A DNA stretch of 64,000 bases from Candidatus Altimarinota bacterium (GTDB lineage Bacteria; Patescibacteriota; Gracilibacteria; UBA4473), in contig JAIPJB010000002.1 of assembly GCA_021734395.1 (NCBI GenBank), positions 124,001 to 188,000 on the forward strand. The letters run 5' to 3'. Shown here in pieces: positions 62,748 to 63,190 of the stretch. Under the pieces are notes generated by a model. It made no database searches. It had not been told where the DNA came from and saw only the letters and a program-made list of their open reading frames with translations. The position numbers and the translations under genes were made by a program. Position 1 is the first letter of the stretch; each line of letters begins with the position of its first letter.

Positions 62748-62824
62748 GCCACCTTAGCTCAGCTGGTCAGAGCAGCTGTCTTGTAAACAGCAGGTCTCCG
62801 GTTCGAATCCGGAAGGTGGCTCCA
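62748..62824 (+). tRNA. tRNA-Thr (anticodon TGT)
   Basis: 77 bases with encoded CCA. Acceptor GCCACCT/AGGTGGC, D arm GCTC/GAGC, anticodon stem GCTGT/ACAGC with loop CTTGTAA, T arm TCCGG/CCGGA enclosing TTCGAAT. Confidence 0.97.
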
Positions 62825-63190
62825 GCGAAAAATCAGTGCCCCCAAAGGGGATAGTGGTTTTTCGCCTTGAACGCAGTTCATGGATTTGAACCGGTCGGTT
62901 CGATCATTTGCACCGACCCTGAGCTTAGCGAAGGGGAGGATGCAAATGCCTCGATTTCCCGCCTTAGCAGGATGAGAGTATCCGGAAGGTGGCTCCATTA
63001 AAAACCAAATGCATCCCTTGTGGATGCCTTTTGTTTTAAGGGTTATCTTTTTGGATTTGAACCGGAAAAGGTTCGACGCGAAAAATGACCGCCGTACGGC
63101 GGGGGAGAATATTTGAGCGCTCGACCTCGGAACGAACGAAGTGAGTGAGAATGGAAGAGTACCCAGAAGGTAACTCAAAATCACCCTTTC
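62825..63190. repeat. tRNA-Thr 3'-end repeat region
   Basis: The last 18 bases of tRNA-Thr, ATCCGGAAGGTGGCTCCA (62807-62824), recur exactly at 62980-62997 and in diverged form at 63160-63177. A second string, GGATTTGAACCGG, which is complementary to the tRNA T arm, occurs at 62882-62894 and 63053-63065, each followed by GGTTCGA. Hairpins fill the units: 62825-62865, 62906-62947 (with CCCTGAGCTTAGCGAAGGG inside) and 63011-63027. No protein gene is credible in the 423 bases between the tRNA and the gene at 63248. Confidence 0.85.
63011..63036 (+). terminator. Terminator-like hairpin after the exact tRNA-end copy
   Basis: GCATCC (63011-63016) and GGATGC (63022-63027) with loop CTTGT, then CTTTTGTTTT. 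It stands 13 bases after the copied tRNA end, where the original tRNA terminator would be expected. Confidence 0.7.

Follow-up and report, generated by a model that had tools for sequence, protein, structure and literature searches.

A widespread gene-less palindromic repeat family at bacterial tRNA 3′ ends, with E. coli rtT as the one named relative

Introduction

The 3′ ends of bacterial tRNA genes carry a real, widespread and largely unannotated repeat family, of which Escherichia coli rtT is the one named relative. The modules of the family are roughly 100–240 bases long, contain no gene, and end in the last 15–18 bases of the tRNA at which they lie. The tyrT repeats are a decades-old curiosity of one E. 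coli locus; they now appear as one case of a class that stands beside tRNA genes in at least eight phyla and is mostly unannotated. As far as we have found, earlier labels for the family are limited to a few sites in E. coli and related bacteria. No open-access description came to light in a search of the literature on the rtT/tyrT repeats and on repeats that follow tRNA genes, and an earlier description elsewhere is possible.

The window (the whole analysed stretch of 64,000 nucleotides) belongs to a Patescibacteria-like genome of 1.02 Mb (80.9% complete, six contigs). One of the four tRNAs in the window, tRNA-Thr, carries such units.

Results

Two units trail the tRNA-Thr gene

The host gene of the array, tRNA-Thr(TGT), lies at 62748–62824 on the plus strand, as do all of the features of the array (ARAGORN; Rfam RF00005, 70.7 bits). 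Its positions 59–76, from the T loop to the CCA (62807–62824, ATCCGGAAGGTGGCTCCA), are the source of the direct repeats. The gene is trailed by two units, unit 1 at 62825–62997 and unit 2 at 62998–63178, with copy-start spacings of 173 and 181 nt. Unit 1 starts with a hairpin that abuts the tRNA and has the A- and T-rich flanks of a terminator (62825–62865); this hairpin was recognized from the sequence, and the hairpin scan reported it on the minus strand only. It is followed by an antisense T-arm strand, termed (1), with the sequence GGATTTGAACCGG (62882–62894), which is complementary to (2) and to the start of (3) in the test on 77 units described below. Segment (2), GGTTCGA (62897–62903), is a copy of tRNA positions 52–58 and recurs in all unit types. 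A 76-nt palindromic insert, P3, assigned to type A by BLAST in its own genome (62904–62979), separates (2) from (3), an exact 18-nt copy of the tRNA 3′ end (62980–62997), which closes the unit.

Unit 2 has the same order, with a second terminator hairpin (62998–63039, stem 63011–63027), a second antisense strand (1′) of sequence GGATTTGAACCGG (63053–63065), (2′) GGTTCGA (63070–63076), a palindromic insert P3′ of type D that resembles the second tRNA-Met unit (63077–63160), and a diverged copy of the tRNA 3′ end, (3′), with 13 of 18 positions matching (63161–63178). The elements named in a preliminary description of this locus are all present: the exact 18-base copy 173 nt downstream, the diverged third copy further on, the two GGATTTGAACCGG strings 171 nt apart, the terminator-like hairpin after the exact copy, and units without a gene, there being no ORF of note inside them. 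The claim that GGATTTGAACCGG can pair with the tRNA T arm stands as to pairing but not as to perfect pairing, one central position being a G-U or a mismatch. The split T arm of the unit itself (GGTTCGA at 62897–62903 plus ATCC at 62980) gives GGATTTGAACCGG a pairing of equal reach. In shuffled sequence, the window is expected to contain 0.05 matches to ATCCGGAAGGTGGCTCCA at up to three mismatches; GGATTTGAACCGG has four matches at up to one mismatch versus 0.15 expected. The 155 nt between the Thr repeats hold no integrase or cargo, only short ORFs of no note.

Units occur at many tRNAs of this genome and its relatives

tRNA genes were located by covariance search, and the surrounding stretches were read for downstream copies of each gene's own 3′ end. 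Such copies lie downstream of 16 of the 42 tRNAs of the genome, mostly 100–283 nt away. Exact 18/18 copies are present at 11 tRNAs, i.e. Asn, Gln(ctg), Gln(ttg), Glu(ttc), Glu(ctc), Gly(gcc), Gly(tcc), Lys(ttt), a Met, Thr(tgt), and Tyr; the chance expectation for the 42 tRNAs combined is about 2e-7 exact copies. The Met case among these belongs to another class, linked to a GIY-YIG gene (see below). In related genomes, where the preliminary description had proposed to look for the layout, copies are present as well, at 14 of 42 tRNAs in a congener and at 17 of 35 in a family member, and the occupied tRNAs differ. A tRNA-associated repeat family, one of the readings then put forward, is strongly supported by the layout at 16 of 42 tRNAs here and in at least eight phyla overall. 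The same description had held that a lack of similar units elsewhere and of a transcript would leave a one-off remnant of an integrated element; the units found elsewhere refute that reading on its own terms.

The order within a unit is tRNA end, usually a terminator, GGATnnGAACC, GGTTCG, palindromes (P3), and a copy of tRNA positions 59–76. There are several P3 types, with unlike types in tandem at one tRNA and one type at several tRNAs. BLAST of the Thr unit against its own genome returned units at Arg, Gln, Glu, Met, and Tyr loci and an orphan Ser array, and type B gave six matches, all behind tRNAs (Lys twice, Lys-ctt, Gly twice, and Trp). The type B P3 is 100% identical over 52 nt at the Lys and Gly(tcc) loci, where the tRNA-matching ends differ. 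Save for the one orphan array with Ser ends, P3 of types A and B occurs in the genome only downstream of tRNAs. Comparison of paralogues shows clean addition: Gln(ctg) has the tRNA followed first by unit B, and Gln(ttg) has the tRNA, unit C, then unit B; Gly(gcc) and Gly(tcc) likewise form an empty/filled paralogous pair.

The orphan array occupies the start of a contig (C1:1–550) and consists of type A units with tRNA-Ser 3′ ends and no adjoining tRNA-Ser gene. Beside it lies AAAGGGTAGGAGTTCT, which also trails the Ser(gga) and Ser(gct) genes, a placement that suggests an island junction. Decay of the distal copy is apparent in the Thr, Lys, and Gly(tcc) arrays; as a rule, a new proximal and an old distal copy is not general and is seen in some arrays only.

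The antisense strand is matched to the split T arm of its own unit

Strand (1) can pair with the split T arm of its own unit in two parts, P2 (GAACC with GGTTC) and P1 (GGAN with the start of the copied 3′ end). Pairing was tested on 77 units, against shuffled units, using only positions that are absent from the search pattern. tRNA positions 63–68 are paired in 71, 69, 56, 61, 40, and 45% of the units, respectively, versus 43, 27, 37, 34, 30, and 25% after shuffling, and pairing is at background from position 69 on. P1 therefore comprises positions 59–68, and P3 is located at the point 58|59 in the T loop. In the phylum-wide matches, for which the search left the centre of (1) free, its two central bases differ from the TC needed for full pairing with the tRNA T arm, with one exception, which is simply a tRNA gene on the opposite strand; pairing with the tRNA itself is thus not likely to be the purpose of (1).

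The copy ends at A76 in genes that encode CCA and at position 73 in genes that do not, so its length (18 or 15) follows the tRNA's own end and not a fixed stagger. Among the non-tandem copies in CCA-less cases, 5 of 18 carry a CCA (p ~0.004 at 1/16; 7e-6 at 1/64), and L118 adds one more. Loci with CCA in a copy though the adjacent gene has none are L118, L142, L148, L178, L239, and L253. In this small sample, the extra CCA may reflect either the mature tRNA as the source of the copy or a favoured tRNA-like end. A number of units keep only the first 8–11 nt of the copy, i.e. its P1 part.

The family extends across at least eight bacterial phyla

A phylum search pattern consisting of a T arm, 55–85 nt, GGAnnnGAACC, 1–30 nt, and GGTTCG matched in 16 of 380 sampled phylum genomes, and the reversed control gave none. 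A stricter pattern with 28 fixed bases, run on GTDB species genomes, identified at least 114 stretches in at least eight bacterial phyla, the listed matches including Bacteroidota, Pseudomonadota, Bacillota, Verrucomicrobiota, Gastranaerophilales (Melainabacteria), Saccharibacteria, Neomarinimicrobiota, Auribacterota, and others. Reversed-pattern controls were zero in those of these genome searches that report them. At 46 of the 80 loci that were read, at least 17 of 18 bases of the tRNA's own 3′ end, which lie outside the search pattern, recur 100–240 nt downstream. Phage records contained a single RtT-type match, in a 515-kb record labelled Salmonella.

The tyrT repeats (rttR) of E. coli K-12 share their plan with the units of the window type. 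Exact units are also present in K-12 at proK and after lysT, lysW, lysY, lysZ, and lysQ, i.e. all five tRNA-Lys genes of the lysT operon, and none was found at proM, proL, serW, serT, or argX. In the lysT operon an exact 18-nt copy of the tRNA-Lys end stands behind each of the five genes; at proK the unit is duplicated, and a REP-like palindrome interrupts the second copy. The K-12 record annotates no feature at the proK or lysT-operon units. RtT-type units are present in 4711 of 5426 E. coli genomes, at 1–14 matching places each, and direct reading showed arrays of one, two, and more units; about 700 of the 5426 have no RtT match. In E. coli N96, a ketoacyl-synthase/epimerase cluster downstream of narI replaces the tyrT region of other strains.

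Discussion

A proposed palindromic DNA element at tRNA 3′ ends

We consider the chances about even that the units are a very widespread, ORF-less, palindromic DNA repeat element at tRNA 3′ ends, in a superfamily that includes E. coli tyrT/rtT. Every unit is bounded on both sides by tRNA positions 59–76, so the tRNA stays intact. P3 modules are common to different tRNA loci, whereas the ends of a unit correspond to the tRNA at which it lies, and E. coli genomes differ in the size of their arrays. A single strand or cruciform could fold as P1, P2, and P3. Such an element would enter at the T-loop position via a DNA break, copying, or recombination, duplicating the tRNA end; arrays might then expand and contract through slippage or unequal exchange between the 15–18-bp direct repeats, and P3 modules could be swapped between loci by short-tract recombination. 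Candidate enzymes would be a homing endonuclease (GIY-YIG) and a recombinase that works on folded DNA. Comparison of near-identical strains revealed no fresh insertion, and no enzyme was linked to the ORF-less units. Further observations count against an element: the copied stretch runs exactly to the end of the tRNA (76 with CCA, 73 without), unlike the product of a fixed-stagger integrase; the CCA in CCA-less cases hints at an RNA step or selection for a tRNA-like end; the decay of distal copies is not general; and a jump between tRNAs that re-matches (1) and (2) to the new tRNA is without a worked-out mechanism.

A structured non-coding RNA, which the preliminary description had also suggested, is an unlikely alternative. 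Transcripts reading through from the tRNA promoter would be cut at the copied 3′ end as a tRNA is, leaving an rtT-like RNA with a CCA end, which might act as a decoy for proteins that process or bind tRNAs. Transcription of some units is evident from E. coli rtT: the annotation of rttR is a 171-nt RNA, and its 3′ end falls on the CCA of the first copied end. The lysT-operon units lie between tRNAs and hence within the precursor, and some copies have a CCA that their gene lacks. The units also fold better than shuffled sequences (mean z −3.3 on the top strand), but the score is almost as strong on the opposite strand (−2.9). In RNA helices, G-U in place of Watson-Crick pairs is far commoner than A-C. 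The internal mismatches of the P3 stems comprise 4 G-U to 9 A-C, or 42 to 47 when looser flanks are allowed, whereas the terminator regions preceding (1) at the same loci give 41 to 1. The P3 stems thus show no excess of G-U over A-C, which makes palindromes at the DNA level likelier than a selected RNA. Moreover, a terminator stands between tRNA and unit in most cases, the exceptions being E. coli tyrT and the lysT operon, where units lie inside or directly behind the tRNA transcript, and the CCA end is not kept in several units where the copy is intact over its first 8–11 nt only. Across most of the unit the RNA reading is thus not supported; P1 alone, with 16 G-U to 8 A-C, may have an RNA role.

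GIY-YIG genes at tRNAs and possible origins of the units

Of the 13 GIY-YIG genes in this genome, 6 are no more than 250 bp from a tRNA, versus 0.44 expected (p 2e-6). The tRNA-linked sites are C6:84018–84508 (L012, L350), C2:163344 (L341), C6:190305 (L343), C4:17176 (L346), and C1:13401 (L344), and small GIY-YIG genes are directly beside tRNAs in this genome and in two relatives. Their junctions often have a partial tRNA copy and a GC-rich hairpin. The genes are on the 3′ side of Met (two tandem elements with 34-nt copies) and Phe, and of Ile and Phe in relatives; on the 5′ side of Leu, Pro, and Gln, the order is a partial 5′ tRNA copy, the gene, and then the intact tRNA. At the Gln locus (L344, ~1390–1880), partial 5′ copies of tRNA-Gln in which a palindrome (GGCGTAG-TCCCGCCAAGGCGGGAT-AAGGCACCAG) replaces the D-loop region occur twice, upstream of the real tRNA-Gln gene.

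The tRNA-linked GIY-YIG genes appear to be homing-endonuclease elements, and these too leave the tRNA whole; the ORF-less units may therefore plausibly have a homing-type origin. Homing endonucleases have been described within insertions in the rRNA genes of CPR bacteria (PMC11270868) and, in a phage, at tRNA genes (PMC13096335). A more far-reaching proposal, which we regard as doubtful, is that the units are bacteria-wide, tRNA-parasitic, ORF-less "homing" DNA elements that enter at the T loop and duplicate the tRNA 3′ end, so that the tRNA is restored every time. One shared enzyme would move them in trans, either a homing endonuclease of the small GIY-YIG type or a recombinase that works on folded (1)-(2)-(3). 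The tyrT, proK, and lysT spacers of E. coli would then be unrecognised examples.

It is improbable that the units are by-products of DNA break repair, immobile in themselves. In that case GIY-YIG enzymes would cleave tRNA genes, and repair of the break would produce partial tandem duplications of the tRNA into which palindromic filler had been captured. The partial tRNA copies that flank GIY-YIG genes (3′ at Met, Ile, and Phe; 5′ at Leu, Pro, and Gln), with their GC-rich junction hairpin, are in keeping with such a process. Against it, the ORF-less units have a precise architecture across at least eight phyla, too regular for random filler, and the 3′ copies linked to GIY-YIG genes are longer (34 nt at Met) and do not start at position 59.

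Remnant att sites of tRNA-integrating phages or islands (tyrosine recombinases) with their cargo deleted are a very unlikely source. Direct repeats of tRNA 3′ ends are the usual mark of such integration, but the window units have no integrase or cargo between the repeats, and the same layout recurs in all phyla seen. The conserved internal architecture, the heterotypic tandem arrays, and the identical P3 stretches at the Lys and Gly loci also argue against remnants. Retroviral-type priming has a primer site of 18 nt and a stop at m1A58; by analogy it would be attractive, as a lead only, since the copy begins at 59, but 13 of the 18 non-tandem copies in CCA-less cases are without CCA. We rejected a casposon- or Cas1-type target duplication, as copy length tracks the tRNA end, and a decayed second tRNA gene, as the ORF-less units have no 5′ tRNA remnants between terminator and (1).

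Comparison with known systems

Whichever process applies, the family raises the question of what repeatedly copies an exact tRNA gene end together with a matched antisense T arm. If the palindromic DNA elements that we favour are mobile, tRNA 3′ ends host a gene-less parasite besides phages and islands, with E. coli as a tractable system. The family is also a warning that small-RNA catalogues may list DNA-level palindromes as "RNA families".

The closest named system is rtT (Rfam RF00391), the units of which lie directly downstream of a tRNA, end in the tRNA 3′ end, and are tandem. They are ~178 bp long, with an antisense-type strand GGGGAAGGATGAGAA complementary to the copied ATCCTTCCCC, as well as AAGGTTCGA and palindromes. 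The window units share this plan, being immediately 3′ of a tRNA, containing its 3′ end, and recurring in tandem at a similar length (173 and 181 nt at Thr). Unlike rtT, they stand behind terminators and belong to a family at many tRNAs. The RF00391 model at E ≤ 1 gave no match at the Thr, Gln, Glu, Lys, Asn, Tyr, and Gly loci (E. coli control, 134–138 bits), and Rfam at E ≤ 1 assigned no family to the tested units of this genome. Since position, length, and plan are shared without a model match, we file the window units as a variant and not as members.

Integron attC arrays have inverse-core and core ends and variable palindromic middles, with folding conserved rather than sequence. The units resemble them in their ends and palindromic middles, a likeness that we take as analogy only. 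Unlike integrons, the repeat is the tRNA end itself and no IntI is known at these loci; by inspection, the units contain neither a RYYYAAC ... GTTRRRY core pair nor a cassette gene, their ends being tRNA sequence. REP/BIME and other small palindromic repeats are likewise short, ORF-less, palindromic, and dispersed, with spread between loci, but the present units are confined to tRNA 3′ ends and have host-matched ends. Homing-endonuclease and tRNA-restoring integrative elements, like the units, insert at a tRNA gene, leave the tRNA intact, and leave a partial copy behind, and this genome itself contains GIY-YIG elements of such an appearance. In contrast to homing-endonuclease elements, the ORF-less units copy the tRNA from position 59 and carry the antisense layout of (1) and (2).
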